Part shown: in pieces, positions 24,942 to 43,507 of the stretch
Position numbering within the stretch: the first letter of the stretch is position 1
Layout of the letters: each line of letters opens with the position of its first letter
Origin: Pseudomonas sp. KU26590
GTDB lineage: Bacteria; Pseudomonadota; Gammaproteobacteria; Pseudomonadales; Pseudomonadaceae
NCBI RefSeq assembly: GCF_026153515.1
Contig: NZ_CP110644.1
Location: 1,889,501-1,953,500 of the forward strand
Length of the DNA stretch: 64,000 nucleotides
Direction of reading: 5' to 3'
Made by a program: the position numbers and the translations under genes
The notes under the pieces: model-generated
Databases searched by the model: none
Told to the model about the DNA's origin: nothing
Seen by the model: only the letters and a program-made list of their open reading frames with translations

Positions 24942-25454
24942 TTAACACTCATCGGCCAGAAGCGCCCAGCGCTCGTGATCGCACCACACTCCGGCGATCT
25001 GAAGGTATTTCGGGGAGAACCCCTCTTTCCGAAATCCGAGACGTTTGACCAGCGCGATTGAACGCACATTTTCAGGTTGAATATTGGCCTCAATACGGTG
25101 AAGACCCAGCTCTTCAAAGGCATACCTCGTCGTCAGTTCTACCGCCCGGGACATTCTTCCCGTCCCGGCAAACGAGACCATGCCCCAGTAGCTGAGGTAG
25201 GCGTTCTGAAAGCCTTTATAGAAAATCTAGCTCAGGTTTGTCACTCCAACAATCTGACCCGATTCTCTGTCGCGAGCCAGTAGCCCAACGCTAGCGCCTG
25301 TGGTTTGAGCGGAATACCACTCCTCGAACCCTGAAGCGGTTGTGAAGGGCTGTACCCAACGACCGTGGTAATCCGGGCTTTCTCGATTCGCGTGTAGAAG
25401 CTCGTCTAGATCGGTGCGTGTTACCCGGGCGAGCTTAACGTTTGACATTTCCAT
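24942..25454 (-). pseudogene. GNAT N-acetyltransferase (RimJ/RimL-like) with an internal amber codon
   Basis: Two open stretches, 25454-25227 and 25181-24942, are in the same reading frame. Joined, they would give about 170 residues of a GNAT acetyltransferase. The only break is a TAG as codon 76, in ...VGVTNLS-stop-IFYKGFQNAYLSYWG..., where relatives usually have Glu, so GAG to TAG is the simple explanation. The acetyl-CoA half follows (ATGRMSRAVELTT as GTGRMSRAVELTT; ANIQPENVRSIALVKRLGF). There is no frameshift. The gene is either dead or read by suppression. It lies at the left edge of the accessory region, beside the IS3 element. Confidence 0.85.
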
Positions 25455-25655
25455 ACTATTCTCTCGTTACTTGCTTTCCCGATGGCTCTCCGGATTGCTG
25501 ACGCTTTTGTCCCCGGGGTCATGTGTGCTGCCAACCTGTGATTTTATGATGAAGACGAAACCACACTGAGTCCAGTCAGACCCCCGGTGTCAGGATAGTT
25601 GTCGCCTCTCCGGTTTTTCCTAAAAAAGTATATCGGGGGCGGAAAGAGACTGGTC

Positions 25656-26159
25656 GTGCCGTACTATTCACCTGAACGCAGAGCCGCATTACTCAAAATG
25701 CTGCTTCCCCCGCTGAACCTGTCGATGGCCGAGGTTTCCCGGCGCGAAGGGGTCAGCGAAATGTCTTTGTCCAACTGGCGCAAACAGCTCAGTTCTGAAG
25801 GAAGTGCAGTGTCCGAAAACAAGCCGTTGACCGAGAACTGGTCAGCCGAAACCAAGTTTGCTGTCGTGCTTGAAGCCGCCGGTTTGTCCGAGATCGACCT
25901 GGGTGAATACTGCCGCCGCAAAGGCCTTTACCCCGAGCAAATCACGGCCTGGCGACAAGCCTTCATCACCGGCCAGAAATCGGAAAAGGCCCTGCAAAAA
26001 GAAGAACGAGACCAGGCGCGCAAAGACAAGAAACGCATCCAGGAACTTGAGCGCGAACTGCGCCGCAAAGACAAGGCGCTCGCTGAAACAGCCGCGTTAT
26101 TGGTGCTGCGAAAAAAGCTCAACGACTACTGGGGAACGACCGACGACGAGGCCAACTAA
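25656..26159 (+). CDS. IS3-family transposase OrfA
   Basis: A 167-residue product from the GTG at 25656 (GGAAAGAG upstream). It carries two helix-turn-helix-like segments (MAEVSRREGVSEMSLSNWRKQL; IDLGEYCRRKGLYPEQITAWRQAF) and then a charged coiled coil (about residues 125-160, KEERDQARKDKKRIQELERELRRKDKAL) for multimerisation. An A-AAA-AAG slippery heptamer lies at 26111-26117 in the OrfA frame. A -1 slip there enters a stop-free frame leading into OrfB. Without slipping, translation stops at 26157. Confidence 0.9.
   Translation: MPYYSPERRAALLKMLLPPLNLSMAEVSRREGVSEMSLSNWRKQLSSEGSAVSENKPLTENWSAETKFAVVLEAAGLSEIDLGEYCRRKGLYPEQITAWRQAFITGQKSEKALQKEERDQARKDKKRIQELERELRRKDKALAETAALLVLRKKLNDYWGTTDDEAN
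26111..26117 (+). promoter_or_regulatory. Programmed -1 frameshift site (A AAA AAG)
   Basis: In the OrfA frame the codons are CGA AAA AAG CTC, so AAAAAAG is phased exactly as a -1 slippery heptamer. After the slip, reading continues GCT CAA CGA CTA CTG and stays open into OrfB. This is the standard means of making the OrfAB transposase in IS3-family elements. Confidence 0.75.
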
Positions 26160-26185
26160 CGTCTCTGCCAGAGCGGCAGTTACTC

Positions 26186-27211
26186 GTGGCCTGGCTGGGC
26201 GAAGCGGTCGCGGCGGGAGCCAGAAAAATCAGGGCCTGTCGGGAAGTTGGTCTGTCGCTGCGCACCTTGCAACGGTGGACTCAAACAGACGCTATCCAGA
26301 CCGACGCCCGTACGACGGTCACACGGCCAACGCCACGAAATGCGCTGACCGAGGCAGAGCGACAGGCCATTGTGACGCTGTGTAACAGCCCGCAGTATGC
26401 CCACTTGCCGCCAAGCCAGATCGTGCCGCGCCTGGCCGATCAAGGGCGCTATCTGGCGTCGGAGGCGACGATCTATCGTGTCTTGCGAGCGACGGGGCAA
26501 CAGCAACATCGAGGCCGTAGTCAGCGCCCCAGACGGTACGCCGCACCAACGACGCATGCGGCCAAAGCGCCGAACCAAGTGTGGTCGTGGGACATCACGT
26601 ACCTGCCGTCGCCGATACGCGGCCAGTTTTATTACCTCTATCTGATCGAGGATATTTACAGCCGCAAGGCCGTGGGCTGGGAAGTCTATGAGGCGGAAAG
26701 TGGCGAGAAAGCCGCTGCGCTGCTGCAACGCAGCGTGATCGGTGAGCAGTGTTTACAAGACCCGCTGGTGCTGCACTCGGATAACGGCGCGCCGATGAAA
26801 TCGGTGACACTGCTGAGCAAAATGTACGACCTGGGTATCACCCCGTCACGTGGCCGACCGCGTGTCAGCAACGACAATCCGTACTCGGAGTCGTTGTTTA
26901 GAACACTGAAATACTGCCCGCAATGGCCGCAGGATGGTTTTGCCAGTTTGGACGCCGCACGCAGCTGGGTGAGGGACTTCATACGGTGGTACAACAACGA
27001 GCACCGACATAGCCGTATCCGGTTCGTCACACCGGCTGAGCGGCATCGAGGACTGGATCATAAAGTCTTGGCCCAGCGACATGAGCTGTACGAACGAGCC
27101 AAGGAAAAAAGACCGGAACGGTGGTCAGGCCGGACGCGTAACTGGGAACCGATCGGCACCGTGCTGCTGAATCCGGATCGAGAGCAACAGGTCGAGAAAA
27201 GAGCAGCATAG
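26186..27211 (+). CDS. IS3-family transposase OrfB (DDE integrase core)
   Basis: A 341-residue catalytic part from the GTG at 26186; the functional protein is probably the OrfAB fusion. The DDE triad is visible: Asp in WSWDITYLPS, Asp in VLHSDNGAPM, Glu in NPYSESLFRTLKY. The N-terminal helix-turn-helix (ACREVGLSLRTLQRW) and the C-terminal RHRGLDHKVLAQR region are typical of the family. The frame looks intact, so the element may still be active. Confidence 0.93.
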   Translation: MAWLGEAVAAGARKIRACREVGLSLRTLQRWTQTDAIQTDARTTVTRPTPRNALTEAERQAIVTLCNSPQYAHLPPSQIVPRLADQGRYLASEATIYRVLRATGQQQHRGRSQRPRRYAAPTTHAAKAPNQVWSWDITYLPSPIRGQFYYLYLIEDIYSRKAVGWEVYEAESGEKAAALLQRSVIGEQCLQDPLVLHSDNGAPMKSVTLLSKMYDLGITPSRGRPRVSNDNPYSESLFRTLKYCPQWPQDGFASLDAARSWVRDFIRWYNNEHRHSRIRFVTPAERHRGLDHKVLAQRHELYERAKEKRPERWSGRTRNWEPIGTVLLNPDREQQVEKRAA

Positions 27212-27579: not shown

Positions 27580-28563
27580 TTAGCTTGGACGCGCATCAGA
27601 TAAATCGGCTCCTTTTTTCAGATGTGGAGATTGAGCAGATGAGTGTCTCTTATCTATCGCTGCCAGTCGGACATCAACTAACGCTGCCTGCTCCCGCAAT
27701 GCATCTTCAAACAAGCTCACCAGTGGAGATGCCGGGCGGTACAGGGGCTTTACGAGGCTGACTGTGAACGGTATTGATGCTGTGAACTGCCTGATTTCCA
27801 AGCCTTGCCCAACGAATTCAAGTGCGGTCAACGGGTTGACGATGGCCAAACCGACGTGCTCACGAACCATCGCGCAGACTGACGCTGCACTGTGGGTATC
27901 CAGCACCATCTGCCGCTCCACCTGAGCCTGAAGGAATATTTCGTCGATCTGCTGTCTGTAGCTGTCAAGGTTAGACAAGCTGACGAATGGCTGGGAGTCG
28001 AAGTCCTTAGGTTCCAATGTATGTTTCTCCAGAAGTGGGTGACCTACCGGCAAGACGCAAACTTCATCAACGACCATCAAGGGTACTAACTCTGTCCCTG
28101 GGGGAGCCGTTGCCGCTTCAGTCAGCCCAAGGTCATAGCGCTGAGCCGACAGCCATTCTTCCAGCAATGGTGATTCTTGCGGCGTGATACTCATGCTGGC
28201 TTTAGGGAACTGTGCGAAGAAGCGCTGGCAGGCTCTAGGCAGCAAGGATTGAGAGAACACCGGTAGGCATGCGATCGACAACTGCCCGTGCTCGAACTCC
28301 CTCAACGACGCCGCTGCATTCAGAATCCGCCCCAAGCCAAAGTAGGCTCGTTGCACCTCTTCGAAAAGAGAAAGGGCTTGAGCCGTAGGTCGCAAACGAC
28401 CACGCACGCGATCGAACAGTTTAAGTTGGGTCAACTGCTCGAAGCGAGCCAGCTCCCGGCTCACAGTAGGCTGGGAGGTATGCAGCATCGCAGCGGCTTC
28501 TGTCACGCTGCCTGAAGTCATGACTGCTCGGAAAACCTCTATGTGGCGCAACGTGGCTGACAT
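27580..28563 (-). CDS. LysR-family regulator, divergent from the N-hydroxylase operon
   Basis: A 327-residue LysR-type regulator. The winged helix at residues 1-60 includes SGSVTEAAAMLHTSQPTVSRELARFEQ. The effector domain resembles the LysR/NocR-OccR group that senses basic amino acids or opines (VLPVGHPLLEKH, VREHVGLAIVNPLTA). It is transcribed away from an operon that includes a lysA-like gene, just as lysR and lysA are divergent in E. coli. A TGATA-N6-TATCA dyad lies in the 155-bp gap. A sensor of lysine, diaminopimelate or a derived product is therefore plausible (inference). Confidence 0.9.
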   Translation of the reverse strand: MSATLRHIEVFRAVMTSGSVTEAAAMLHTSQPTVSRELARFEQLTQLKLFDRVRGRLRPTAQALSLFEEVQRAYFGLGRILNAAASLREFEHGQLSIACLPVFSQSLLPRACQRFFAQFPKASMSITPQESPLLEEWLSAQRYDLGLTEAATAPPGTELVPLMVVDEVCVLPVGHPLLEKHTLEPKDFDSQPFVSLSNLDSYRQQIDEIFLQAQVERQMVLDTHSAASVCAMVREHVGLAIVNPLTALEFVGQGLEIRQFTASIPFTVSLVKPLYRPASPLVSLFEDALREQAALVDVRLAAIDKRHSSAQSPHLKKGADLSDARPS

Positions 28564-28583
28564 GAGCTGGAACTCGCGGATTC

Positions 28584-28599
28584 TGATAATCCCATATCA
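28584..28599. promoter_or_regulatory. Candidate LysR-type operator (TGATA-N6-TATCA)
   Basis: TGATAATCCCATATCA is a perfect 5-bp inverted repeat with a 6-bp centre, lying 20 bp upstream of the LysR gene and 120 bp upstream of the divergent operon. Its T-N14-A spacing fits the general LysR dyad layout. Assignment is by position only. Confidence 0.5.
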
Positions 28600-28718
28600 T
28601 AAATGAATAGAGTTGGTGAATATTGATATTTTATGGGGGATTTGTCTTTCTCCATCATGCCGCCTACCGCGCGATAGCACAGTCGATGCACACGCGCTAA
28701 CCAAGGTAGGGAAGACCG

Positions 28719-30002
28719 ATGGACAATCAAGTATTCGATGCCCTAGGAGTAGGTGCGGGTCCGTTCAATCTCAGCGTTGCAGCGCTTCTTCATCCGATAA
28801 AAACTGTTCGTAATTGCTTTCTCGAAAAGCAGACCGAATTTTCTTGGCACGCCGGGATGCTTTTACCAGACACAACTGTTCAGAACAGTTTCCTCAAAGA
28901 TCTCGTCAGCTTTGCTGATCCAACAAGCGCCTTTTCTTTCCTGGCTTTTCTTCATGAACACAAGCGCCTCTACCAGTATGTGAACGCTGGTTTTCAAAGA
29001 ACTGCTCGCCGAGAGTTCAACCAATATCTGCAGTGGGCGGCCCGATGCCTACCAGCGGTGCAGTGGGGCGAAGAGGTGAAAATGGTGAAGTCCCATTCTT
29101 TGGGATTTGAGGTTTTCACTGAAACTCATACATACATCGCCCGCAACTTGATTGTCGGCACCGGACCGCGTCCATCGGTACCTGTCATGGCAAGACCTTT
29201 CTTGGGGGAGCAGGTCTTTCATAGCAGCGACTACCTGTTCAATCGACAGTCGCTGAGTGGACGACGGATTGCGGTCATCGGCGGTGGCCAAAGCGGGGCT
29301 GAAATCGTACTCGATCTGCTGGGACAGAGCGAAACACCCAGCGAAATCGTCTGGTTGAGTTCGCGTCCGAATCTTGCTCCGCTAGATGAGTCTCACTTTG
29401 CCAATGAGCTGTTTACCCCTGCCTATGTGGAATATTTTTGGAGTTTGGAGAAATCAAAAAAACACCAGTTGCTCGCGCAACATACGTTAACGAGTGACGG
29501 TATTTCTCCAGAGACCCTGGAAGCGCTTTATCAAAGACTCTACCAACTTCGATTCGTAGATCACGGCGCACCCTGTCGATTGATGCACTCACGCAGAGTA
29601 GAAAACATAAGGCCTGCCGACGGCGCATATCTACTGGATGTAAGAGAATTGGACACCGAACGCACGGAGGTTCTTGGTGTAGAGCGCATTGTATTGGCCA
29701 CGGGGTACAGACAAGACGCTGTACCTGCAGTCCTGGAAAACTTACTGGATGACATCGAGTTTTCAGACGATGAACCGGTCGTTCACCTGGACTTTTCGCT
29801 CGGGTACCGGGGGGCTGGGAAGATTTTTTTGCTCAATGCCGCTAGGCACAGCCACGGAGTCAGTGAGCCGAATTTGTCTTTGAATTCTTGGCGTGCTGCC
29901 ACCATCGTCAACGCTATCGTTGGCTATGAGCACTATGCGAGCCCTCATACTCATTCAATGCTTGAGCTCGGACATTTCACCAATAGAGTAGGCGTTTCCT
30001 GA
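28719..30002 (+). CDS. L-lysine/L-ornithine N-monooxygenase family protein (IucD/PvdA-like)
   Basis: A 427-residue flavin-dependent N-hydroxylase. The FAD motif GAGPFNLSVAALL is at residues 11-23, with FSWHAGMLLPDTTVQNSFLKDLVSFADPTS, the family hallmark, at about residues 41-70. The NADPH motif GGGQSGAE and the ATGY motif (VLATGYRQDA) are present. Such enzymes add one oxygen to the side-chain amine of lysine or ornithine, normally as the first step toward a hydroxamate siderophore. Here no acyltransferase, NIS synthetase or NRPS accompanies it. It overlaps the EamA gene by 1 bp and heads a three-gene operon. I cannot decide lysine versus ornithine from sequence; the lysA-like gene favours lysine. 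Confidence 0.9.
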   Translation: MDNQVFDALGVGAGPFNLSVAALLHPIKTVRNCFLEKQTEFSWHAGMLLPDTTVQNSFLKDLVSFADPTSAFSFLAFLHEHKRLYQYVNAGFQRTARREFNQYLQWAARCLPAVQWGEEVKMVKSHSLGFEVFTETHTYIARNLIVGTGPRPSVPVMARPFLGEQVFHSSDYLFNRQSLSGRRIAVIGGGQSGAEIVLDLLGQSETPSEIVWLSSRPNLAPLDESHFANELFTPAYVEYFWSLEKSKKHQLLAQHTLTSDGISPETLEALYQRLYQLRFVDHGAPCRLMHSRRVENIRPADGAYLLDVRELDTERTEVLGVERIVLATGYRQDAVPAVLENLLDDIEFSDDEPVVHLDFSLGYRGAGKIFLLNAARHSHGVSEPNLSLNSWRAATIVNAIVGYEHYASPHTHSMLELGHFTNRVGVS

Positions 30003-30877
30003 TGGCCCCTTACTTATATGTCTTGGCGGCCGCTTTTTTATGGGGGACTTCGTTCGTCGCCGGAAAAATGGCCTTTGGCGTGGCTGATGCCCCGCTCATT
30101 GTTTTAGCGCGCTTTACGATGGCAAGCATTTTCTGGCTGCCGGTATTTCGCTCAGCTCTTGGCAGTATTCCCCGGGCAAGATGGGGAGCGCTGTTGCTGC
30201 TGTCATTTTTGATGATTCCAGCAACCTTCCTGCTGCAGTTCATCGGGCTGCGATACACAAGTGCTACCAGCGCAACGCTGATGATCGGCTTTGAACCCTT
30301 GATGGTGATGCTGTTCGGGTGGTTGATCTGGCGAGAGCAGATGACCTTGCTCAACCTAATGCTTGCTGCTGTCGCCTTGATAGGCGTTCTGCTGGTGATG
30401 GGCTGGCCTGATGGAGCCAACTTCGTGGGCTGCCTCCTGGTCTTGATCTCGACGGTGGTGGTTGCTATCTGGGTTCGTTGGTCAAAGAGTTGGATGCAGG
30501 GGCTTTCGGTCAATGCCTTTACTGCGCTGACAACTGTGTCAGGGACCGTAATGCTCATTCCGTTTGCCTTGCTCATGACTAACGATTGGCAGGTCAACTT
30601 TTCCTCTCAAGGGGTTGCAGCGTTGCTCTACCTGGGCATTGGTTGCAGTTTGGGGGCTGGCTGGCTTTGGAACATGGGGATCCGGTCTATTCCAGCAGAC
30701 TCAGGCGGCATGTTTTTAGCGCTGGAGCCTGTTTTCGGAGTCATATTTGCGGTCGCTCTTCTGTATGAACCCTTGAGCACAACAACCCTTGCGGGTATCG
30801 GTCTCGTTGTGCTCCCGGTGTTTGTTATCTCTTTCCTGCCTGTGCTTCAGGCACGCCGTTCACCTGAGGCTTGCTGA
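30002..30877 (+). CDS. EamA/DMT-superfamily exporter
   Basis: A 291-residue membrane protein with ten predicted helices and two EamA repeats (residues about 5-135 and 145-280). It begins with the family-typical ALLWGTSF-like segment (LAAAFLWGTSFVAGKMAF). Members export amino acids and small metabolites (RhtA, YdcZ-like). It overlaps the N-hydroxylase stop by one base (TGATG) and is followed one base later by the LysA-like gene. Export of the pathway's product or intermediate is the natural guess. Confidence 0.9.
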   Translation: MAPYLYVLAAAFLWGTSFVAGKMAFGVADAPLIVLARFTMASIFWLPVFRSALGSIPRARWGALLLLSFLMIPATFLLQFIGLRYTSATSATLMIGFEPLMVMLFGWLIWREQMTLLNLMLAAVALIGVLLVMGWPDGANFVGCLLVLISTVVVAIWVRWSKSWMQGLSVNAFTALTTVSGTVMLIPFALLMTNDWQVNFSSQGVAALLYLGIGCSLGAGWLWNMGIRSIPADSGGMFLALEPVFGVIFAVALLYEPLSTTTLAGIGLVVLPVFVISFLPVLQARRSPEAC

Positions 30878-30878
30878 T

Positions 30879-32117
30879 ATGAAATCATTCTCCGATAGTC
30901 TTTTATCTAAACTGGCGGCTCAATATGGCACCCCTTTGTGGGTTTACGACGGCCAGATGATCCAAGAGCGTATTAAGCAGTTAGCTGCCTTCGATACCGT
31001 TCGCTTTGCTCAGAAGGCCTGCTCCAATCTTCATATCCTGAAATTGATACGCGACGCCGGGGCGCTGGTGGATGCAGTGTCGCTCGGCGAAATTGAGCGT
31101 GCGCTACTTGCCGGTTTCGCCGCCGGGACTGCGCAGGGAGCTTCCGGCGTCGTATTCACTGCCGACGTTTTTGATCGAGCTACAATACAGCGAGTGGTCG
31201 AGGCGCAAGTGGAAGTTAATGTTGGTTCACTCGACATGCTACGTCAGTTGGGACCGCTTTCACCCGGCCACCGCGTATGGCTACGTATCAATCCAGGCTT
31301 CGGTCATGGGCACAGTCGCAAGACCAACACCGGCGGCGAAAACAGCAAACATGGGATATGGCATACCCAGTTGGATGAAGCGCTGACTCTGGTCCGTAGC
31401 TTCAATCTGCATCTTGTCGGTCTGCACATGCACATCGGTTCGGGCGTTGATTACCAGCATCTGAATCAGGTCTGCAGCACTATGGCGGAACTGATAGTCG
31501 GCATGGATCATGACATTGAAGCCATATCAGCCGGAGGAGGCTTGTCAGTCCCATACCGTCCGGGCGAACAACCAGTCAATGCTGATCACTACTTTGCCCA
31601 GTGGGATTACGCCAGGAGGCAAATTGAGCGCCATCTAGGGCACCCGGTGCGCCTTGAAATCGAGCCAGGACGCTTTCTGGTTGCCGATGCTGGTGTACTC
31701 GTGTCAGAGGTACGCGCAACCAAACAGATGGGCAGCAACCACTTCACGCTGGTTGATGCGGGATTTAATGATCTGATGCGCCCCTCGCTTTACGGCAGCT
31801 ATCACGAAATTTCTTTGATTTCCTCACGTGATAGGCCATTACCCATTCAGGAGACCGTGGTTGCGGGTCCTCTTTGCGAGTCGGGTGACGTTTTCACTCA
31901 GTCAGAGGGAGGGATAGTGGAGTCACGGCTGTTACCCGTTGCTCAGGTAGGTGACTATCTAGTGCTGCATGATACGGGGGCTTACGGCGCATCTATGTCC
32001 TCAAACTACAACAGCCGGACCCATGCGGCTGAAGTGTTGGTTTATGGCGATGAGGAGCGCCTGATCAGAAAACGCCAGCCATTAAGTGCCTTATTGGAGC
32101 TTGAAGAAGGCAGTTAA
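30879..32117 (+). CDS. Diaminopimelate decarboxylase-like PLP enzyme
   Basis: A 412-residue fold-III PLP decarboxylase of the short E. coli LysA type. The PLP lysine is in FAQKACSNLHIL (about residue 50). HIGSG, EPGRFLVADAGVL and the substrate-specific GPLCESGDVF are all kept, as is LHDTGAYGASMSSNYNSR near the end. These are diaminopimelate decarboxylase signatures, not ornithine decarboxylase ones. A pseudomonad already needs a housekeeping lysA, so this is probably a second copy giving lysine, or decarboxylating a related diamino acid, for the pathway. Start chosen one base after the EamA stop. Confidence 0.88.
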   Translation: MKSFSDSLLSKLAAQYGTPLWVYDGQMIQERIKQLAAFDTVRFAQKACSNLHILKLIRDAGALVDAVSLGEIERALLAGFAAGTAQGASGVVFTADVFDRATIQRVVEAQVEVNVGSLDMLRQLGPLSPGHRVWLRINPGFGHGHSRKTNTGGENSKHGIWHTQLDEALTLVRSFNLHLVGLHMHIGSGVDYQHLNQVCSTMAELIVGMDHDIEAISAGGGLSVPYRPGEQPVNADHYFAQWDYARRQIERHLGHPVRLEIEPGRFLVADAGVLVSEVRATKQMGSNHFTLVDAGFNDLMRPSLYGSYHEISLISSRDRPLPIQETVVAGPLCESGDVFTQSEGGIVESRLLPVAQVGDYLVLHDTGAYGASMSSNYNSRTHAAEVLVYGDEERLIRKRQPLSALLELEEGS

Positions 32118-32270
32118 GCGCGTAAGGCAGTAATACGATCGTCAGCACCGTTGTGATAGACAGCCTTTCAGCGAATCCTCAGTGCCAGCTTTTTACTGAC
32201 GATTCGCTTCTGGAGGCCCGAAGGACGTTTTTCAAGAAAGCCGTTCCCAGGGCGATGATGTCTGTATTGG

Positions 32271-33230
32271 CTAGAGATCCAGAACCAGTAGAGCTGATAA
32301 ACTTCTTGAACAGCAAAGCGTCATTTGGTTGCCCAACGCTCGTTCTGCGTCACTTAGCACCATGTCCAGGTGTTCCGGCTGACCCGATAGAACCCCGGTG
32401 ATGCAAGCGCCGCACATGCCCTGCTCGCAGGAAACGGGCACATCTACCCCTGCGTCGATCAGTACGTTAGCGATGGAACGATCCTTCGGAATTCGATAGA
32501 CCGCGCCAGTGGATTTCAGCTCTATTTCGAATGCGCCCAGGTTGTACTGAGCAACCAATGGGGCTGCCGAAAATGCCTCTTTGTGAACGCAATCGGCCGC
32601 CCAGCCGAGCTGGCTGACTCGGCCCTCTACATGATTCATAAACTCGCCAGGGCCGCACAGGTAAACGCGTTGGCCAGGGCCAGGATGACTCAGTTCCTCT
32701 GGTAAATACTGGCGAGGACTACGGCCGGCATCGCTATGATGGAGGTGAACGTGGGTCTTGCCATAAAGCATTTCCAGTCGTTCTCTGAAGGCAACGTCCG
32801 CTGCTGTGCGGGTGTAGTAGTGCAGCGAGAATGATAGCTGCTTGCTGAATAACTCTGCCGCCATCGACGCCAACGGCGTAATGCCAATTCCCGCAGCGAT
32901 CAGCACATAGTGCTCGGCAGGCTTGAGGGTAAAAAGGTTGCGCGGTTGCGAGATTTCCAGTTCGTCGCCTTCAGCCAGGTATTCATGTATGAACAACGAC
33001 CCGCCACGCGACCTTGGTTCTCGCTTGATACACAACTCATAGTGGTCTTTGATGAAGGGTGCGCTGGCGATGGAGTACTGTCGAATCAAGCCGCTGGGTA
33101 GAAACACGTCAATGTGTGCCCCAGCCTCAAAAGGTGGTAGCGTGTCACCCGGCATAGGCTCAAGACGAACACCTATGTTCGATAAGCCTTGCGCTGTCTT
33201 ACGAGCCACTCTGACCCTTTGTCGTGTCAT
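32271..33230 (-). CDS. Class IA oxygenase reductase (VanB/phthalate dioxygenase reductase type)
   Basis: A 319-residue electron-transfer protein. It has an N-terminal FMN-binding barrel (RQYSIASAP), an NADH domain (LIAAGIGITPLASM; VYLCGPGEFM) and a C-terminal plant-type [2Fe-2S] domain with cysteines in CEQGMCGAC and LCCSRS. The order FMN-NADH-2Fe2S is that of class IA reductases that feed Rieske oxygenases. GAGGAG precedes the start. It lies 10 bp downstream of the Rieske oxygenase gene, so the two form an enzyme pair. It is convergent with the lysA-like gene. Confidence 0.93.
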   Translation of the reverse strand: MTRQRVRVARKTAQGLSNIGVRLEPMPGDTLPPFEAGAHIDVFLPSGLIRQYSIASAPFIKDHYELCIKREPRSRGGSLFIHEYLAEGDELEISQPRNLFTLKPAEHYVLIAAGIGITPLASMAAELFSKQLSFSLHYYTRTAADVAFRERLEMLYGKTHVHLHHSDAGRSPRQYLPEELSHPGPGQRVYLCGPGEFMNHVEGRVSQLGWAADCVHKEAFSAAPLVAQYNLGAFEIELKSTGAVYRIPKDRSIANVLIDAGVDVPVSCEQGMCGACITGVLSGQPEHLDMVLSDAERALGNQMTLCCSRSLSALLVLDL

Positions 33231-33240
33231 GACTAGCTCC

Positions 33241-34287
33241 TCAACTCAAAAAGAATTGGCTAAGGCCTTGGCTCCGCAGACCTCTGCGATAAGCAATGGA
33301 GCTCATATCGGCGGGGATATGAACTTCTAGCGTCGGATCAAGCGGTAGGCGTTCCGGTTTCTGCGACTCGACAATCAGGCGGTCTTCTTCGAATACGCGC
33401 AGGTTGAATGCGTATACGTCTTTCACCGAGAGTTCTTTGTCGAAGTTCCGTGCTATTGGGGCAAACATCCGTGTCACCTTTGCTGAGACCGGGGACGCGG
33501 CGTTCATGATCACCAAGCGTCCATCCTCTGGAAAGTGGACGGTAAGCGTTGCAGTGAACGGCAGGTGTACTTCGAAATGGCGCAACCAGTTAAAGCCTTC
33601 AGGTGCTTTGCCATCTACCCCGATGGGATAGTTGCCCACGGTACTTCGGTAGTGGGCCTCGAAGCCTTTCGCCGTTTCTACAGGACGATAAGGGGTGATT
33701 TCCGTGTTGTTGGGATCACCGAAGGTGTCAGTGTGAACAAAGCCGAAGTGCGCTACATCGAGGAATCCCTCCAACTGGCGCCCTGCGAATGCCTGGATAT
33801 CGATAGTCGGGCAAATTATCTGCTGAAACTCCGGCTCATCCCAATGCGGCATATTCGGAATGTCGACAACGTCATCCTGCGGGTCGAGACAGGTCCAGAT
33901 TAGGCCGTAGCGCTCAACTGTCGGATAGGTGTAGAGCTGCATACGAGTAGGAATGGCAGTATTTGGGCTGGCGGGCACTTTATTGCAACGACCGCCATTA
34001 CCGAAACGCAGACCATGGTAGGGACAGATCACCCCTTGCCCATCGCTTTTCCCCATGCTTAACGGCACGCCACGGTGTGGGCAAACATCCCGCGCCACGA
34101 TCAACTCATCGCCTATTCGATAAATCACTAACGGCTCGTCCAGCAACATGGCTTTGATCGGCTCCGCACCCACAGCAAGGCTCTGTGCGATGGGATACCA
34201 GTGCGCGGCCAGAATACGCCAGTCGCTTTCTATGAATGTGCAGTTCAGTGGGAGTGTCCGGTCTTTTATCATTTTGATAAGTCTCAT
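33241..34287 (-). CDS. Rieske non-heme iron oxygenase (VanA-like)
   Basis: A 348-residue oxygenase component. The Rieske [2Fe-2S] ligands are in CPHRG and CPYHG (about residues 69-92). The catalytic iron site appears in EGFLDVAHFGFVH, with the usual D-x2-H-x4-H spacing. The nearest kinds I know are vanillate O-demethylase-like oxygenases, but the group also includes N-oxygenases such as PrnD. The substrate cannot be read from sequence. It is an operon with its reductase, and divergent from a LysR gene. An alternative start lies five codons in (ATG at 34272). Confidence 0.9.
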   Translation of the reverse strand: MRLIKMIKDRTLPLNCTFIESDWRILAAHWYPIAQSLAVGAEPIKAMLLDEPLVIYRIGDELIVARDVCPHRGVPLSMGKSDGQGVICPYHGLRFGNGGRCNKVPASPNTAIPTRMQLYTYPTVERYGLIWTCLDPQDDVVDIPNMPHWDEPEFQQIICPTIDIQAFAGRQLEGFLDVAHFGFVHTDTFGDPNNTEITPYRPVETAKGFEAHYRSTVGNYPIGVDGKAPEGFNWLRHFEVHLPFTATLTVHFPEDGRLVIMNAASPVSAKVTRMFAPIARNFDKELSVKDVYAFNLRVFEEDRLIVESQKPERLPLDPTLEVHIPADMSSIAYRRGLRSQGLSQFFLS

Positions 34288-34408
34288 CAGTTGCTGTGCA
34301 CGGTCCGATTCAAAGCGGTCTGAGGCGCTTTAGCGATGGACTTTAGAAGGCCCACGTGATGAACTCAAACACCGTTTTTTCACTATCGCGGTGCAAAAAA
34401 GACAACGC

Positions 34409-35329
34409 ATGTTTCCCTTCTCTCGCTTTACCCGATACTTCATGGAAGTCGTTAACCATCGCAGCATTCGACGGGCTGCCGAGGTACTGCATGTATCGGC
34501 ATCAGCCATCGATCGACAAATTCTGAAGGTGGAGCAAGAGCTCGGAGTGCCGCTATTCGAGCGCTTGCCAAGTGGCTTGAGGCTCACAGCGGCAGGCGAA
34601 CTTCTGTTGTCCAATACCCGCCACTGGCAGAAAGACTACGTCCGTACCCGCGAGCAAATCGACGAGATGCAGGGGTTGCGCAGAGGTCATGTAGAGATCG
34701 GACTGATTGATGCGCTGAGCGAAGGTATCGTCGTGCAGGCCGTTTCAGTGTTAATGAAGCAATACCCTGGTCTGACCTTCGGGATGAAGGTGGCCGACAA
34801 CCAGAAAGTAGCGCAGATGATCGCGTCAGCTGAGGTCGATTTCGGCTTCGTACTGGATGCGGAGAGCAACGCAGAGTTGGCCGTCAGTGCCAGTACCGAA
34901 ATCAAAATGGGCATTGCCATGCCGATCACCCATCCACTGGCAGGCAAGAAAAACATTCGGCTCAGCGAGACACAGCATGAAACCGTCATATTCCCGGCCG
35001 AGCCCTTGGTCGTGCACAAGCATGTAAGAGCGCTGCACAGCCTGTTGCATCTTGATGTCAGGCAGAGAGTCGCCTGCAACGACTTACGCATGATGCGTTC
35101 GCTGATTCGCCAAGGTGTGGGTATCGGCATGCTGTCATGGCTTGATGTCGCCAGTGAGGTGGCAGAAGGCACCATTGCATTCGTGCCGCTGACAGGCATC
35201 CATGTGAGTCATCCGGTGCTGTCTATTTGCGTTGCGCCACATCGACAGCTGTCCAAAGCAGCGCTGTTGGCGCTGGGGGATTTGACCGAAAGAATTAAGA
35301 GTCTGGCGATGCTTCAGGCGAACAATTGA
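34409..35329 (+). CDS. LysR-family regulator divergent from the Rieske oxygenase
   Basis: A 306-residue regulator from the ATG at 34409; a GTG at 34391 would add six residues. The winged helix is atypical but clear (NHRSIRRAAEVLHVSASAIDRQILKVEQELG), and is of the kind with DRQI in place of SRQI. The effector domain carries GHVEIGLIDALSEG and MRSLIRQGVGIGMLSW. It shares only a short 120-bp gap with the oxygenase operon and so probably controls it. It is distinct from the LysR protein at 27580. Confidence 0.88.
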   Translation: MFPFSRFTRYFMEVVNHRSIRRAAEVLHVSASAIDRQILKVEQELGVPLFERLPSGLRLTAAGELLLSNTRHWQKDYVRTREQIDEMQGLRRGHVEIGLIDALSEGIVVQAVSVLMKQYPGLTFGMKVADNQKVAQMIASAEVDFGFVLDAESNAELAVSASTEIKMGIAMPITHPLAGKKNIRLSETQHETVIFPAEPLVVHKHVRALHSLLHLDVRQRVACNDLRMMRSLIRQGVGIGMLSWLDVASEVAEGTIAFVPLTGIHVSHPVLSICVAPHRQLSKAALLALGDLTERIKSLAMLQANN

Positions 35330-35423: not shown

Positions 35424-36083
35424 GTGAGTGCACCATCTAAAGAGGCTGTCGGTTTAGCCTATAGCATCGAGGCCATGTGCCACGCGCAGGCCATGACCTG
35501 GGAAGCTATTCGTTTGCTGTCGATGCGTATCCAGCCAGGGATGCGGGAGTCCGAAGCAAGAGAACTTGGCAAAGAGGTTCTCGCGCAGCTTGAAATGCAG
35601 CGTATCTGGCATCCGTTACTGGTTCGTTTCGGTGTCAATACGCTCAAGACGTTCAAGCAGCGCTCCGAGGTTGACCCGGTTCTGGGCGAAAACGATATTT
35701 TTTTCATTGATATGGGCGCTGTCTGGCAGGGACACGAGGGCGATGCGGGTGAAACCTTCACTGCAGGGGATGATCCGGAAATGAAGGCCTGCGCCGCAGC
35801 GGCCAAAACCTTGTTCGACCGGATTCAAGCGCGTTGGAAAAATGATCGCATCGCAGGACTTGAACTGTACCGATACGCCGAGCAACAGGCGAAGGACATG
35901 GGCTGGCAGTTAAACCTCAGTATCAAGGGCCACCGCGTGAGCGATTTTCCACATGCCATTCACCGTGGCGGCGACCTGGGTGATCTGGAGCATTGTCCGA
36001 ATGCTGGATTGTGGATTCTGGAGATCCAGATTGCCCATCCAAGCAAGCCCTATGGCGCATTCTATGAAGACCTGCTTGCTTAA
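35424..36083 (+). CDS. M24 (methionine aminopeptidase/creatinase fold) family protein
   Basis: A 219-residue pita-bread-fold protein from a GTG start with AGAGGAAC upstream. Two metal aspartates are visible in FFIDMGAVWQGHEGDAGETF, a histidine in KGHRVSDFPHAIH, and a glutamate in LWILEIQIAHP. It is shorter than methionine aminopeptidase or prolidase and resembles stand-alone M24 hydrolases of unknown substrate. AT-rich upstream DNA, and 27 bp ahead of a cyclotransferase-like gene, so perhaps an operon. A role in amide or peptide hydrolysis for the neighbouring pathway is only a guess. Confidence 0.8.
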   Translation: MSAPSKEAVGLAYSIEAMCHAQAMTWEAIRLLSMRIQPGMRESEARELGKEVLAQLEMQRIWHPLLVRFGVNTLKTFKQRSEVDPVLGENDIFFIDMGAVWQGHEGDAGETFTAGDDPEMKACAAAAKTLFDRIQARWKNDRIAGLELYRYAEQQAKDMGWQLNLSIKGHRVSDFPHAIHRGGDLGDLEHCPNAGLWILEIQIAHPSKPYGAFYEDLLA

Positions 36084-38713: not shown

Positions 38714-38908
38714 GTGACTTCTCAGAGTTTCATAGTAAAACCGACGGGATTCTACCAGCTAGTCCTGGCCAAAAAGTGGCTGCCATGGGGATTCGAACAG
38801 ATACGAAATCCGTATACAGCCAAGGCTAGCTAATTCGATTGGATACTCCGCATCTTTTACGATCGGACTCAGCAATCCTTGAACCTCCTACAGATAGGAG
38901 GCTTTTCC

Positions 38909-39529
38909 ATGAAAACTGTAAAACCAACGAATAGCTTACCGTGGAACAAGGGGAAGCTAGTCGGTCAGAAGTCGCCACTGCGCCTGCGAGACATCTGGGG
39001 CATCCGTATCAGGCTGGAGCTTGCCGCGAAGGTTAGGGACCTAGCACTCTTCGATCTGGCGATCGATAGCAAGCTGCGAGCATGCGACCTGACCAAGCTG
39101 CGAGTTCGAGATGTCGCGCACGGAGCCAATGTATCTTCACGTGCCATCATCATGCAGCAAAAAACTCACCGACCTGTGCAGTTTGAAATCACGGCTCAGA
39201 CCCGAGCAGCCCTCGACGCGTGGTTGAAACAAGCGCGGCTGAAGAATGAAGACTACCTTTTCCCTAGTCGCCAAGGTGCATCTCCACATTTATCTACGCG
39301 TCAATACGCGCGGATCGTGAAATCCTGGGTAGCGTCCATCGACCTTGACCCCGTGTCATATGGGACCCACTCAATGCGGCGGACCAAGGCATCGTTGATA
39401 TATCGTCGAACCAAAAATATCCGGGCTGTACAGATACTACTGGGCCACACGAAGCTGGAAAGCACCGTCAGGTATCTCGGTATTGAAGTAGACGACGCGC
39501 TTGAGATGGCAGAGCAAACAGAGGTATGA
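38909..39529 (+). CDS. Compact tyrosine recombinase/integrase (catalytic domain only)
   Basis: A 206-residue recombinase. The catalytic residues can be placed: Arg57 (KLRACDLTKLR), a Lys at about residue 85, HSMR at 154-157, His180 (LLGHTKLE) and the nucleophile Tyr189 (VRYLGI). It lacks the usual N-terminal core-binding domain, so it is about half the size of a phage integrase. GGAGG lies eight bases upstream of the start. Compact recombinases of this kind are common beside islands in pseudomonads. It may have mobilised the adjacent McrBC region, but I found no paired att repeats. Confidence 0.9.
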   Translation: MKTVKPTNSLPWNKGKLVGQKSPLRLRDIWGIRIRLELAAKVRDLALFDLAIDSKLRACDLTKLRVRDVAHGANVSSRAIIMQQKTHRPVQFEITAQTRAALDAWLKQARLKNEDYLFPSRQGASPHLSTRQYARIVKSWVASIDLDPVSYGTHSMRRTKASLIYRRTKNIRAVQILLGHTKLESTVRYLGIEVDDALEMAEQTEV

Positions 39530-39572
39530 CTAGACAAGGACGGTGGTGTCAACCGCTGCCGTCCTTGAAGAG

Positions 39573-39779
39573 CTACCCCCTGAAGCTATCTACGATCTCG
39601 TGTAGCGTTATCCAAGGAAACTCGGACTCCGACCGATGGTCTGGGCAGCGCTCGGTGTGTAGAAACTCCTGTTCCGCATCCATCAACCGCTGTTCTTCCA
39701 AACAACCACGGCAGACCAGTTTACCGTCTGCAATCTGAAACGAAGAGTTCCACTGAAGTAGCTTGTGCTCTATATCCAT
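39573..39779 (-). CDS. Small Cys/His-rich hypothetical protein
   Basis: 68 residues with a possible zinc site: CRGC (residues 23-26) plus HTERCPDH (about 41-48). Convergent with the recombinase gene. No known family recognised. The start MDIEHKLLQWNSSF is plausible. It could be a small regulator or an antitoxin-like protein, but nothing supports either. Confidence 0.55.
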   Translation of the reverse strand: MDIEHKLLQWNSSFQIADGKLVCRGCLEEQRLMDAEQEFLHTERCPDHRSESEFPWITLHEIVDSFRG

Positions 39780-39956
39780 GGCGCCATCCTCTCGCTCCGG
39801 TGAACCTCTTCAACGTACTCTTTTGCAGCGGTGTGTAAACGCTCAATCGGGTTACCTCGTTTGAGGGGGGGCTCTACAGAGTGGCGGCTGACGGCCAATC
39901 GTTGCCTGTCGCCGCCACCGGCAGCTTTTGGCCGTTAGCAGCCCTTAATGGAGGTC

Positions 39957-40008
39957 TGCTTCGGGTCGAAAGCGGCAAGCCACGACCGGCCGCTTTCGAC
40001 CCAAAGCA
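39957..40008. repeat. Inverted repeat with CGACCCAAAGC core
   Basis: TGCTTCGGGTCGAAAGCGGC and its near-complement GGCCGCTTTCGACCCAAAGC face each other across a short loop. A related half, ATTCGACCCAAAGCGGCCGC, occurs at 44485. It lies in the 39780-40166 gap, between the 3' end of mcrC and the 5' end of the Cys/His-rich gene. No gene is seen in that gap. Confidence 0.65.
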
Positions 40009-40166
40009 GTCGGTCAGCAGAGACAGAAACCGGCCAGAAACAGTCTCAGCAATAAGGGAGTCAGAGGCAGGCGACAATTTCAGTTGCACATACCCGTGGT
40101 CTGCTCCCGACTTGTTAAGTCCGATAGGCTGTCCAGAGAGAGTAAGCTCCCCTGTCATGCAAAAAC

Positions 40167-41435
40167 TCAAGATGGGGCCCGCTCCCAATCCCCTCTGACA
40201 CCCACCAGTTGATCATTCAATAGGTCGAATGGCACCACCTGAAGCGTAACTCCACCAAACTCAAACGGCACCAGCGCCTCTTGAAATGCAGCCCGTTTCG
40301 GATAAATCAGCATCATGTCGCCGCTTACGCCTAAGTAAGTCTTTCCGTAAGCATACATTTGATAAAAATCACTCTGTCGCAAACCGTATTTGTTACCGCG
40401 ATCAGAGGCGTTCAAGAGCTTCCACTTAGTATCCAGCACCCAGGTTTTCTCTGCCTTAGTGATTAGAAAGTCCGGCCGTAACTCGAACATTTTTTCCCCA
40501 CCCTGTTCGCACAAGTGGTGACGCCGAGCCTGGTTCTCGATTTGCGCACCTGGCGCCAATGCACTCTTCAACCAGGCCCCCACGTAGTGTTCAAAGAGTT
40601 TCTCCATGGGAAACAGCAAACTGATGCCATGCCACTTCCCCGCAACAGCCATAGGCATTTGCTGTCTGAGGATCAACTCGCACCATGGGCGAATCGGTTG
40701 GTAGTGAGTCATCAGGCGATCAGTACGCCAGGCTTTGAAGTCGGCCTTGAGGTCGCGGCTGAGGGGGACTTCGTTGAACTGCTCACGCAGCTCATGGGCG
40801 AGGCGCCAATTGGCGGGGTGTTGTGTGGTTTTGCATACCAGATGCAACGCATTCTGGAGCAGACGGTTTTCGGCACGGTCTGCGCTAAACAGGTCGTGGC
40901 GAATCTGGAAATGGTGCTGGCGCCCAGGGGGCTGGCGTAGTTGAGCAACGACGTTGAGTTGGCCCCGTAAATAGCTTTGCTCCTCCTCTACCCTCCGATA
41001 GTCGAAGCGCACTCCGCGTTTGATCAGGTGGTCGAGGTGCGCGAGAAATTGGCCGATTACCCATTCGGTCAGTGGTGACTTGAAATCCGAAATGGAGGTC
41101 GGGCCAAGTTCCCGGGTGGGTAGTTTCAACGCCCGCTGTAGCATCTTGCGCAGCAACTGGCGGCTCTCGTCCAGGCAATCGGTTCGGTCGGTGTTTTTGG
41201 GTAGGATCTCTATGCGCGTGCCGCAAGGTGTCTCGACGACGCCAACGTAGCTGTCAAGCTTCAGCCAGCGCCGCCCCTCGACCTGAACCAAGGTGGAGCC
41301 TGCCTTGGTGAAGGACGCGTTTATCTTGCATAGCCAATCGAACGCGCTCGCACTGATGCAGGCGCGGTCAAGGCTGTTCTCTACCTCATCGGTTGTCAGC
41401 CGCGCGTATTCGCGCACGACGATATTTTTGATCAC
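40167..41435 (-). CDS. mcrC: McrC-like nuclease subunit of a type IV restriction system
   Basis: A 422-residue protein. The N-terminal DUF2357-like part contains EYARLTTDEVE and GVVETPCGTRIEILPK, the region that contacts McrB. The C-terminal PD-(D/E)xK nuclease is visible as LRPDFLI (Asp322) and VLDTKWK (Asp335, Lys337). McrC both stimulates McrB GTP hydrolysis and cuts DNA carrying modified bases. It overlaps mcrB by 4 bp, the usual pairing. Nothing in the catalytic residues looks damaged. Confidence 0.92.
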   Translation of the reverse strand: MIKNIVVREYARLTTDEVENSLDRACISASAFDWLCKINASFTKAGSTLVQVEGRRWLKLDSYVGVVETPCGTRIEILPKNTDRTDCLDESRQLLRKMLQRALKLPTRELGPTSISDFKSPLTEWVIGQFLAHLDHLIKRGVRFDYRRVEEEQSYLRGQLNVVAQLRQPPGRQHHFQIRHDLFSADRAENRLLQNALHLVCKTTQHPANWRLAHELREQFNEVPLSRDLKADFKAWRTDRLMTHYQPIRPWCELILRQQMPMAVAGKWHGISLLFPMEKLFEHYVGAWLKSALAPGAQIENQARRHHLCEQGGEKMFELRPDFLITKAEKTWVLDTKWKLLNASDRGNKYGLRQSDFYQMYAYGKTYLGVSGDMMLIYPKRAAFQEALVPFEFGGVTLQVVPFDLLNDQLVGVRGDWERAPS

Positions 41436-43507
41436 GACAAGGCACCGACGTTATCCTCAGTTACCTTTGCAGGCGATTCTGCCTCTACGCGGATAATCCC
41501 CCGGAAGGCCGTTATACGGGCAAAGGCATGCCTGTTGATTTCCCAACTCCCGCCCTCACTGGGCAACTCGACAGTGGTACCGAACAGGTCGCTTATGTCC
41601 CGCGACTTTCTCTGCACAAAACGCTCATCTTCGTGCTTGTTGTGATCGTTGAGGACCCACTGGATGCGCTGCCAATCTTCGAAAAAATACTCTTGTAGCA
41701 AAGGCAACACTTGTGTGCGGAAGATGCTCGCCAGTTGCGGGAGAGTTGAATCATTGGTCAGGGCCATGAAGTAGGCATGCCCTAGGCAGTGGTCGCGGTC
41801 GAGCAGTACCTCAATACGCTCGTTCATGACTCGTAGCAAATGACCGATATTAATGCCTGCAACATTGATCCCATCAAGCAGTTCCGGCTCGGGCGGCATT
41901 TCAGTGAATGAGAAGCGGCGGCGTAGGGCGATATCGAGACCGGCGAGCGACCGGTCGGTGGTGTTCATGGTACCGATCAGGTAGACGTTATCCGGCACGC
42001 CAAACGGCAACTTGGAATAAGGCAAGTTGACCCGCAACGCCTCCGCGGCACCAATACGCTTGGAAGACTCGATCAGGGTGATTAGCTCACCAAAGATCCG
42101 CGAAACATTGCCCCGGTTGATCTCATCAATGATTAACACATGGGGCAAGGGTGTTGCCGCCTCGAAATTCCCTGCGAGAGGCTTGGCACCTTCCGAGTCG
42201 AGGTAGCTCAGCAGGCTGCCCCAGTTAATGCGCTCCAGTTGATAGACCGTCTTTTGGGTCAACCTGCGACCAGCGTTGATAGGCAATATCGAGAGGTTGA
42301 GATCGCGGTACAGCCAGTGCACCGAGCGCACATGATTGTAGTTACTCTCGATGCCGGCCGGCGTGCCTGGGTCGTAGCGGTAGTCGCTGGTAATTACACC
42401 CACCGCAGCGATGGAGGTTGCTGAGTGGAGGCAAACCACCACGTCGCCTTTCTTCATGTCCTTCTCGAAATAGCTCAGGGTGCCTTGGTTACCCTCGCGT
42501 AGGCCCCTGAAGTATTCGTTGCGTTCGGGTTCATTCAAAGACCCGGTCGCTCCCCACCCGATGCGCATCTCGCCGTGGTCCAGGCAATAGGTTTTGGAGC
42601 GGTTGTTGCCCGAGCCATCAATTGAAACCTTCCATACCCTGGCGGTGGGCGAAATCTCGATATCGAGCAGTTCGGGTTGCCCTGCCGCTGCTTCGCATAC
42701 ACGTTTGAAAACACCAGCTTCGATGGTGTAACCAAGGCCGCCTTCCACGATGTCGGCGCGCAGTCCCTCGACGAAGTCTTCATAGCTGAAACTTTGGTGG
42801 AAGGTGACAAAGTTGATTTGCCCGTTGGCAACGAATTCATCAAAACGGCGTTTCAGGTCTGACCTTTTTTGGGTCTTATCCGCAAGGACTTCCGGTGCCA
42901 GGATCTGCAATGCAGCATTGACAGTGTGGAAGGTTTTACCGGTGCCGGGCGGACCAAAGAGTATCTGGTTAAGGGGGATATCTGCGTTGACTACACTGGC
43001 TGCTGGCTGCTGGTTGGGAGGAGGCATTTCATCGTCCATGATCTGAGTGGTAGGATATTCATCCGGCCATTTACCGGTGCGTCTCGTAGAGGGTAAAGCC
43101 TTCGTAAAGCTGCTTTCCTGGAGACGTATACGTGTAGCCGGCAGTAGGGTTTCCCATTCGGAATCGCGAGCATCGGCGGTGACGCGGCGCGAGAAACTGA
43201 TGTTCAAGCCCGAGCCATTAGGTACCACCCAAGCGAAGCAGGCCTCGGCGCGGCCTCCGCCGCTGCGAATGCCAAGGCGGATCTGGCCATCTCCAATGGT
43301 CCAGAAATCCAGGCCCAAGTCGTGGGCATCGAGTACGAAATGGGCAAAACTTTCTTGCGCCTCTTGCGGCCAACCTGATGCTTCGAGGGCCCTCAGCTTG
43401 TTACTTCGCTGAAAATGCTTGAGCACATATGCCAGCGGTAAATCCCTATGCATGACCACGGTGCTTCCTTGGGTGATATCAAAACGCTTCACACTAAGCT
43501 TGGGCAC
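41432..43507 (-). CDS. mcrB: McrB-like AAA+ GTPase with inserted EVE/PUA-like domain
   Basis: A 691-residue motor subunit from a GTG start. An N-terminal domain (residues about 1-135) holds FAHFVLDAHDLGLDFWTIGD and is not the E. coli DUF3578 reader as I know it. Walker A GPPGTGKT is at residues 185-192, Walker B VLIIDEINRG at 457-466, and the McrB signature MNTTDRSLAGLD at 514-525, followed by RRRFSF. Between Walker A and B, residues about 282-432 form an extra block: WKVSIDGS, RIGWGATG, MKKGDVVVCLHSATSIAAVGVI, LERINWGSL. It looks like an EVE/PUA modified-base reader. Paired with mcrC by a 4-bp overlap. Confidence 0.9.
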   Translation of the reverse strand: MPKLSVKRFDITQGSTVVMHRDLPLAYVLKHFQRSNKLRALEASGWPQEAQESFAHFVLDAHDLGLDFWTIGDGQIRLGIRSGGGRAEACFAWVVPNGSGLNISFSRRVTADARDSEWETLLPATRIRLQESSFTKALPSTRRTGKWPDEYPTTQIMDDEMPPPNQQPAASVVNADIPLNQILFGPPGTGKTFHTVNAALQILAPEVLADKTQKRSDLKRRFDEFVANGQINFVTFHQSFSYEDFVEGLRADIVEGGLGYTIEAGVFKRVCEAAAGQPELLDIEISPTARVWKVSIDGSGNNRSKTYCLDHGEMRIGWGATGSLNEPERNEYFRGLREGNQGTLSYFEKDMKKGDVVVCLHSATSIAAVGVITSDYRYDPGTPAGIESNYNHVRSVHWLYRDLNLSILPINAGRRLTQKTVYQLERINWGSLLSYLDSEGAKPLAGNFEAATPLPHVLIIDEINRGNVSRIFGELITLIESSKRIGAAEALRVNLPYSKLPFGVPDNVYLIGTMNTTDRSLAGLDIALRRRFSFTEMPPEPELLDGINVAGINIGHLLRVMNERIEVLLDRDHCLGHAYFMALTNDSTLPQLASIFRTQVLPLLQEYFFEDWQRIQWVLNDHNKHEDERFVQRKSRDISDLFGTTVELPSEGGSWEINRHAFARITAFRGIIRVEAESPAKVTEDNVGALS

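Follow-up and report, generated by a model that had tools for sequence, protein, structure and literature searches.

Gene content of the locus

A 64,000-nucleotide stretch of the Pseudomonas sp. KU26590 genome (contig NZ_CP110644.1, positions 1,889,501 to 1,953,500), referred to here as the window, was analyzed for a block of genes that encodes a flavin N-hydroxylase (NHX), an EamA-type exporter of the drug/metabolite transporter (DMT) family, and a second diaminopimelate decarboxylase (LysA). An earlier note on this DNA had listed seven open reading frames (ORFs) in the block. All seven (LysR, N-hydroxylase, EamA, LysA-like enzyme, Rieske oxygenase, reductase, and a second LysR) were present, and their families were borne out by Pfam and NCBIfam. 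The genes form two independent units (Table 1). In unit 1 (27580-32117), lysR is divergent from nhx-eamA-lysA, and unit 2 consists of the Rieske oxygenase, the reductase, and the second LysR (LysR2). The coordinates agree with the tight spacing that had been described for the nhx-eamA-lysA operon, with a 1-bp overlap between nhx and eamA and a 1-bp gap between eamA and lysA. The longest lysA ORF opens at a TTG at 30789; by homology, the start lies at the ATG at 30879.

Table 1. Genes and control region of units 1 and 2, in window coordinates.
Feature	Position	Strand	Basis
lysR, E. coli-type LysR, lysA activator family	27580-28563	-	NCBIfam PRK11013, 507 bits (cut-off 288)
Divergent control region lysR/nhx	28564-28718		ATATC-N26-GATATTTTAT at 28594-28634; spacer alignment
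nhx, flavin N-hydroxylase, IucD-like (probably L-lysine) branch, 427 aa	28719-30002	+	PF13434 (Lys_Orn_oxgnase), 383 bits (cut-off 21.3)
eamA, DMT-family exporter, 291 aa	30002-30877	+	PF00892, 129 bits, two stretches
lysA, E. coli-type diaminopimelate decarboxylase, 412 aa, second copy of the genome	30879-32117	+	TIGR01048, 405 bits (cut-off 298)
Reductase	32271-33230	-	
Rieske oxygenase	33241-34287	-	
LysR2, second lysR	34391-35329	+	

The LysA of unit 1 matched the E. coli-type structure 1knw with 587 bits over 401 residues, which indicates a full-length E. coli-type diaminopimelate decarboxylase with predicted activity on meso-diaminopimelate (DAP). The only other copy in the source genome above the TIGR01048 cut-off is the housekeeping lysA (G000:C1:240698-241912), which adjoins what appears by eye to be dapF. 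A comparison of the two copies had been proposed in the earlier note, and it demonstrated that they are distinct, with 34% identity. Both EamA repeats are present in the exporter, for which an export role is predicted; a sequence search of solved structures gave no similar one.

Recurrence and ancestry of unit 1

P. avellanae BPIC 631 has the four genes of unit 1 with their order and orientation unchanged, at identities of 89% for LysR, 84% for NHX, 86% for EamA, and 84% for LysA. Because this order is kept at 84-86% identity, the nhx/eamA/lysA trio is unlikely to be a chance arrangement. The flanks of the 16-kb P. avellanae locus are unrelated to those of the window, and a Rieske match is absent from it. 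As an indirect fingerprint of co-location, the exact base counts of the source contigs were compared among the best 120 rows listed for each protein. Seven of the 11 closest nhx rows shared their contig size with an eamA match and three with a lysA match, while the other 109 nhx rows, one of which (P0077) carries no size, gave one match with eamA and none with lysA. This single match (4618 bases) joins two proteins from different sources and is probably due to chance. The sizes of two rows, P0094 (4566 bases) and P0347 (36309 bases), were unmatched in the other lists, although such negatives carry little weight because the clusters display the longest contig alone. The neighborhood search that the earlier note had proposed for the trio therefore returned it in P. 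avellanae, plus contig-size matches of nhx with eamA on seven further contigs, and these data support lysR | nhx-eamA-lysA as a module that recurs as a unit.

The module appears to be rare. At E<=1e-120, nhx was found in 1 of 398 Pseudomonas genomes, which is the source genome itself, and at E<=1e-100 in 2 of 369 genomes of the class, the second being a 40% match outside the clade. One of 51 pattern-matched stretches in a collection of genome contigs encoded an nhx relative (P. avellanae), and none was found among eight pattern matches in viral contigs. EamA was found at E<=1e-45 in 4 of 398 genomes of the phylum, namely the source genome and three distant genomes in which the neighboring ORFs had no nhx or lysA match, and at E<=1e-60 in 2 of 121 genomes of a Pasteurellaceae-type family, by eye with no adjoining nhx. 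The P. syringae-group clusters among the protein matches hold 65 (NHX), 66 (EamA), and 69 (LysA) member sequences, for which genomic context is not given. In a literature search, none of the titles and abstract beginnings listed described the trio, which is weak evidence given the partial coverage of the literature, and the available part of the P. avellanae/hazelnut genome paper (PMC4492584) has no mention of "hydroxylase" or "diaminopimelate". Unit 1 is best described as a new variant, a novel arrangement of known parts.

The origin of this arrangement is indicated by its control region. E. coli-type lysA was found at E<=1e-140 in 76 of 398 Pseudomonas genomes, source included. In all 29 loci inspected, of 75 outside the source genome, lysR is directly divergent from lysA, 110-154 bp separate the two genes, and neither nhx nor eamA is present. 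A closer lysA (E<=1e-190) was found in none of 38 relatives besides the source genome. The lysR-nhx spacer aligned with the three closest lysR-lysA spacers with local scores of 57-67, compared with maxima of 16-19 in 200 shuffles, and it outscored all shuffles against 28 of the 29 spacers. The motif ATATC-N26-GATATTTTAT is exact in both lysR-nhx spacers (2/2) and in 19/29 lysR-lysA spacers. These alignments show homology between the lysR-nhx spacer and the lysR-lysA control region, so that nhx-eamA stands downstream of a lysA-type control region and upstream of lysA. Unit 1 is thus read as an E. coli-type lysR-lysA pair with nhx and eamA placed between the control region and lysA, which the earlier note had overlooked. 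The divergent PRK11013-family LysR and the conserved spacer are those of a LysR-controlled lysA-type arrangement, which makes the operon a predicted LysR target. According to the available text of PMC5002191, the inducer of E. coli LysR is DAP and its predicted box is ATATC-n5-GATAT.

Three sister genomes (G333, G070, and G079) carry a LysA that is 84% identical to that of unit 1 and have kept lysR-lysA. In these genomes nhx and eamA were not found at the locus, nor was eamA found genome-wide in a search that covered 22 chosen genomes. The LysA of G333 is almost identical to that of P. gingeri. The 12 codons ahead of lysA encode PLLRVHGLPETC (G333), PLLRAHCLPETC (G070), and PLLHARYLPETC (G079), which are identical to the tail of the P. 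avellanae eamA product, PVLQARRLPEAC, at 6, 7, and 8 of 12 positions, respectively. Their scores against this tail were reached by 0 of 300 shuffles each, while the other 26 leaders gave p >= 0.053. Another eamA product, P0123 from a 2907-base contig, terminates in PLLQARRVQETC, and a LysA from a contig of that size branches ahead of the G333/G070/G079 group (SH-like approximate likelihood ratio test (SH-aLRT) 89 and 96; quick tree). Because of this ending and the branching order, the peptide ahead of lysA is better read as an eamA relic, and the insertion of nhx-eamA into a G333-like ancestor was considered less likely. The nhx-eamA pair was probably lost in the three genomes, leaving a relic of the last 12 eamA codons; the evidence for this reading consists of 12 codons, simple shuffling, and a tree rooted at its midpoint. 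The picture that results is of a biosynthetic gene pair that was placed behind an amino-acid promoter and was probably lost again in sister lineages.

Probable substrate of the hydroxylase and the proposed pathway

NHX groups with IucD, apart from the ornithine and diamine enzymes. In a quick-method tree of 138 rows, from which nhx rows of <=370 aa were excluded, the SH-aLRT support was 99 for the ornithine-type enzymes, 100 for the diamine enzymes, and 96 for the remaining 131 rows, which include IucD and NHX and have no resolved internal order. The row MbtG_9nns is EtcB, an ornithine N5-monooxygenase by its structure title. NHX also carries the SDGI and FLKDLV motifs, as does IucD. Four positions of SidA were mapped onto NHX via the DesB alignment and the DesB-SidA correspondences in the available text of PMC8009421; their role in binding the amino-acid substrate is described in accessible parts of PMC7347517 and PMC8009421. 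Three of these positions are kept, with K60, N229, and S387 of NHX corresponding to SidA K107, N293, and S469, whereas DesB, DfoA, and FbsI differ from NHX at the K, N, and S sites. Given its place among the IucD-like enzymes and its retention of three of the four substrate-binding positions lacking in the diamine enzymes, NHX most likely has L-lysine as its substrate.

A pathway can be proposed in which LysR would sense DAP as in E. coli and, when DAP is high, would drive nhx-eamA-lysA via the old lysA promoter. LysA would convert meso-DAP to L-lysine, the last step of lysine synthesis, and NHX would use FAD, NAD(P)H, and O2 to hydroxylate the amine of the lysine side chain. The resulting N6-hydroxylysine would be exported by EamA, either free or after an unlinked step. 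A chain from LysA-derived lysine through N-hydroxylation to export had been suggested in the earlier note; the residues of the substrate site, the tree, and the promoter, all of them sequence evidence, are consistent with it. We give roughly even chances to the proposal that unit 1 is a four-gene, DAP/lysine-responsive module that makes and exports N6-hydroxylysine, in which the substrate, product, transport, and biological role are predicted; the comparisons above support the existence and gene order of the module, its control region, and the probable loss of nhx-eamA in sister genomes. Once exported, the hydroxylamino acid would most likely serve as a small antimetabolite or a signal; a function as a complete siderophore is less likely. 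A more far-reaching version, held only tentatively and at distinctly less than even chances, sees here a minimal, horizontally mobile pathway: LysA, borrowed from primary metabolism, together with an N-hydroxylase and an exporter would be governed by the DAP sensor of the cell and would secrete N6-hydroxylysine in free form, as an antimetabolite or a signal. In this version, the hydroxylase would also have become paired with an exporter in a separate event on a Fusobacterium plasmid.

Secretion of free N6-hydroxylysine, if confirmed, would make unit 1 a secreted-metabolite pathway of very small size. It would also raise the questions of what the compound acts on and what part it plays in the plant-associated P. 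syringae group, in which relatives occur. In the related clusters examined (L061, L067-L070), such hydroxylases sit within larger biosynthetic gene sets, while the hydroxylase of unit 1, under a lysine-pathway regulator, is linked to nothing beyond the supply of lysine and export. The cassette lacks siderophore-building genes of the usual kind, so its product may be a simple modified amino acid that leaves the cell.

Several observations weigh against this interpretation. Regarding the control region, one of the 29 lysA spacers (L032) fails to beat its shuffles, and a scan for the LysR box alone (<=3 mismatches) gave 94 occurrences in the window against 85 expected, which is not above chance. 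The box consensus was rejected as stand-alone evidence, so the weight rests on the conservation of the spacer. Regarding the enzyme, the fourth SidA position, N323, is S259 in NHX (IucD also differs there), and the nearest solved structures are diamine hydroxylases. The coupling of the genes also has exceptions: three lineages kept lysR-lysA after the loss of nhx-eamA, and in Thioclava litoralis EamA and LysA share a contig size with a close nhx absent from the best 120 matches listed. EamA relatives that stand alone in Fusobacterium and Pasteurellaceae suggest that the exporter may be general, and the pairing with an adenylation-domain protein and a TonB-dependent receptor in Sinorhizobium suggests that N6-hydroxylysine is usually an intermediate.

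This last point leads to the strongest of the alternatives, that N6-hydroxylysine is an intracellular intermediate for enzymes encoded elsewhere, either a nonribosomal peptide synthetase (NRPS) or an N-N bond-forming enzyme similar to methionyl-tRNA synthetase (MetRS), and that EamA exports the finished product or surplus lysine. According to the available text of PMC7347517, known lysine N6-hydroxylases feed siderophores or hydrazine formation. Relatives of NHX lie beside NRPS or adenylation-domain genes (L061, L068, and L069; L062 by eye) or class I tRNA ligase genes (L067 and L070). The source genome, which has four matches to the N-hydroxylase family, also holds a cluster 1.5 Mb away (G000:C1:384557-391583; L088 4558-11584), with an ornithine-cyclodeaminase family gene, a pyridoxal-phosphate-dependent synthase, a divergent N-hydroxylase, a DAO-family oxidase, and a MetRS-like protein, which we take to be similar to SbnA/SbnB (2,3-diaminopropionate) and to hydrazine-forming enzymes. 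This cluster is a possible partner of unit 1, though it is equipped with its own hydroxylase. No MetRS-like enzyme was found among the family-searched neighbors of nhx or in the P. avellanae locus; neither was an NRPS, for which no genome-wide search was made. The earlier note had seen no acyltransferase or NIS (NRPS-independent siderophore) synthetase, and this holds genome-wide, as both NIS synthetase (PF04183) and IucB-type hydroxylysine acyltransferase (PF13523) had 0 matches in the 6.18-Mb genome; the classical aerobactin-type route is therefore absent. Given these missing families and the recurrence of the module as a self-contained unit with differing flanks, a role as intermediate is considered unlikely, with perhaps one chance in a few.

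It is more doubtful that NHX acts on DAP or another amine of the DAP pathway, with an exported N-hydroxy-DAP that inhibits the DAP/lysine enzymes of competitors and a second LysA that is tolerant or supplies lysine. Synthetic N-hydroxy-DAP inhibits DAP enzymes, and the operon does stand behind a LysR-lysA-type control region with a duplicate DAP enzyme. However, NHX groups with IucD-like enzymes and bears their SDGI motif, the LysA of the cluster resembles ordinary E. coli LysA, and N-hydroxydiaminopimelate was unmatched in the literature searched. Still less probable is a diamine substrate such as cadaverine, which would give a desferrioxamine-type monomer. Despite the nearest structures, a diamine was set aside as first choice because the K, N, and S positions lacking in diamine enzymes are present in NHX and the tree sets these enzymes apart; the genome also has no NIS synthetase.

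Neighboring genes and comparison with known systems

Unit 2 is an independent neighbor of unit 1, as judged from its distribution. The Rieske oxygenase was found at E<=1e-70 in 8 of 249 Pseudomonas genomes, source included. In G085, LysR2 (84%), the Rieske protein (84%), and the reductase (58%) lie together, and G244 has the Rieske protein (83%) and a LysR2 match that is split over two frames. In the six wide Rieske loci examined, of seven non-source matches, nhx, eamA, and lysA were found in none. It is very improbable that the entire low-GC block, Rieske oxygenase and reductase included, is a single pathway: the units adjoin in the window, and on a Rhizobium rhizogenes plasmid a Rieske gene, an FAD-binding oxidoreductase gene, and dapA are neighbors of an IucD-like gene, but the P. 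avellanae trio lacks a Rieske match in its 16-kb locus, unit 2 genes occur in these other genomes in the absence of the trio, and the Rieske protein of R. rhizogenes aligns over 167 aa alone, with 30% identity. The Rieske enzyme was thus rejected as a member of the pathway. The suspicion in the earlier note that the Rieske half may be independent was correct, and its suggestion of a further oxidation by this enzyme is not supported. In G051 and G086, Rieske relatives with 53% identity have homologues of the window genes at 36556 and 37298 in their vicinity, joined in G086 by a homologue of the gene at 35424, which suggests that unit 2 may reach to about 37.6 kb. The Rieske oxygenase of the window is a distant relative of NdmA and SxtT/SxtDIOX.

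The block lies in a region of lower GC content, as had been noted earlier; the measured GC is 0.52-0.56 across 27-44 kb of the window compared with 0.58-0.67 across 0-25 kb. An insertion-sequence-type transposase pair is located beside this region (25599-27211), and just before it are two ORF pieces (24942-25454, minus strand) that appear by eye to be one split GNAT acetyltransferase. A phage-integrase gene (38879-39529) is followed by an McrBC pair (40167-43507), and with these genes (38879-43507) the low-GC block looks like a genomic island that carries a defense system.

Among the systems to which unit 1 can be compared, the clusters of Sinorhizobium meliloti Ak57 and Rhizobium tropici CIAT 899 also join an N-hydroxylase (41-43% identical to NHX) with an E. 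coli-type LysA (65-67%), about 8 kb apart. The S. meliloti stretch is annotated with an adenylation-domain protein, a phosphopantetheinyl transferase, a MATE exporter, and a TonB-dependent siderophore receptor, none of which is in unit 1; the R. tropici stretch has no annotation and is similar by eye. In both, the coupling of LysA with the N-hydroxylase looks as if it serves siderophore synthesis. On plasmid pC5.7b of R. rhizogenes (L070 5159-12396), genes for an IucD-like hydroxylase, a Rieske protein, an FAD-binding oxidoreductase, and a class I tRNA ligase occur together with dapA, as a further lysine-linked N-oxygenation cluster.

On plasmid pSB006A of Fusobacterium vincentii (L057 1336-3470), nhx overlaps a DMT-transporter gene by 4 bp. 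The two genes adjoin as in unit 1 and the NHX falls in the same 14-row clade as that of the window, but the listed stretch has no lysR or lysA, and the EamA falls with other Fusobacterium EamA proteins (in a thinned tree that excluded most of the block P0149-P0202 and rows <250 aa). This difference in grouping suggests that the hydroxylase/exporter pairing arose more than once, and we tentatively propose that it formed independently on pSB006A, where the NHX branch is long. Three further Fusobacterium records have EamA with nhx undetected. The flavin N-hydroxylases are a family that requires O2, and Fusobacterium is known as an anaerobic genus; in F. vincentii pSB006A, a small plasmid, a member of this family accompanies a DMT exporter.

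Compared with single enzymes, NHX resembles the aerobactin L-lysine N6-hydroxylase IucD in its flavin N-hydroxylase family, in 36-41% identity by the alignment used, and in the FLKDLV and SDGI motifs. It differs in being coupled to lysA and a DMT exporter, with PF04183 and PF13523 unmatched nearby as well as genome-wide. The diamine N-hydroxylases DesB, DfoA, and FbsI share the fold and are the best structural matches to NHX, but are without the substrate-binding positions that NHX keeps. The closest parallel to the layout is the E. coli lysR-lysA pair, which unit 1 resembles in both gene families and in the divergent layout (as far as the available text of PMC5002191 describes it), with a spacer motif that is conserved among Pseudomonas, and from which it differs in that nhx and eamA separate the control region from lysA.

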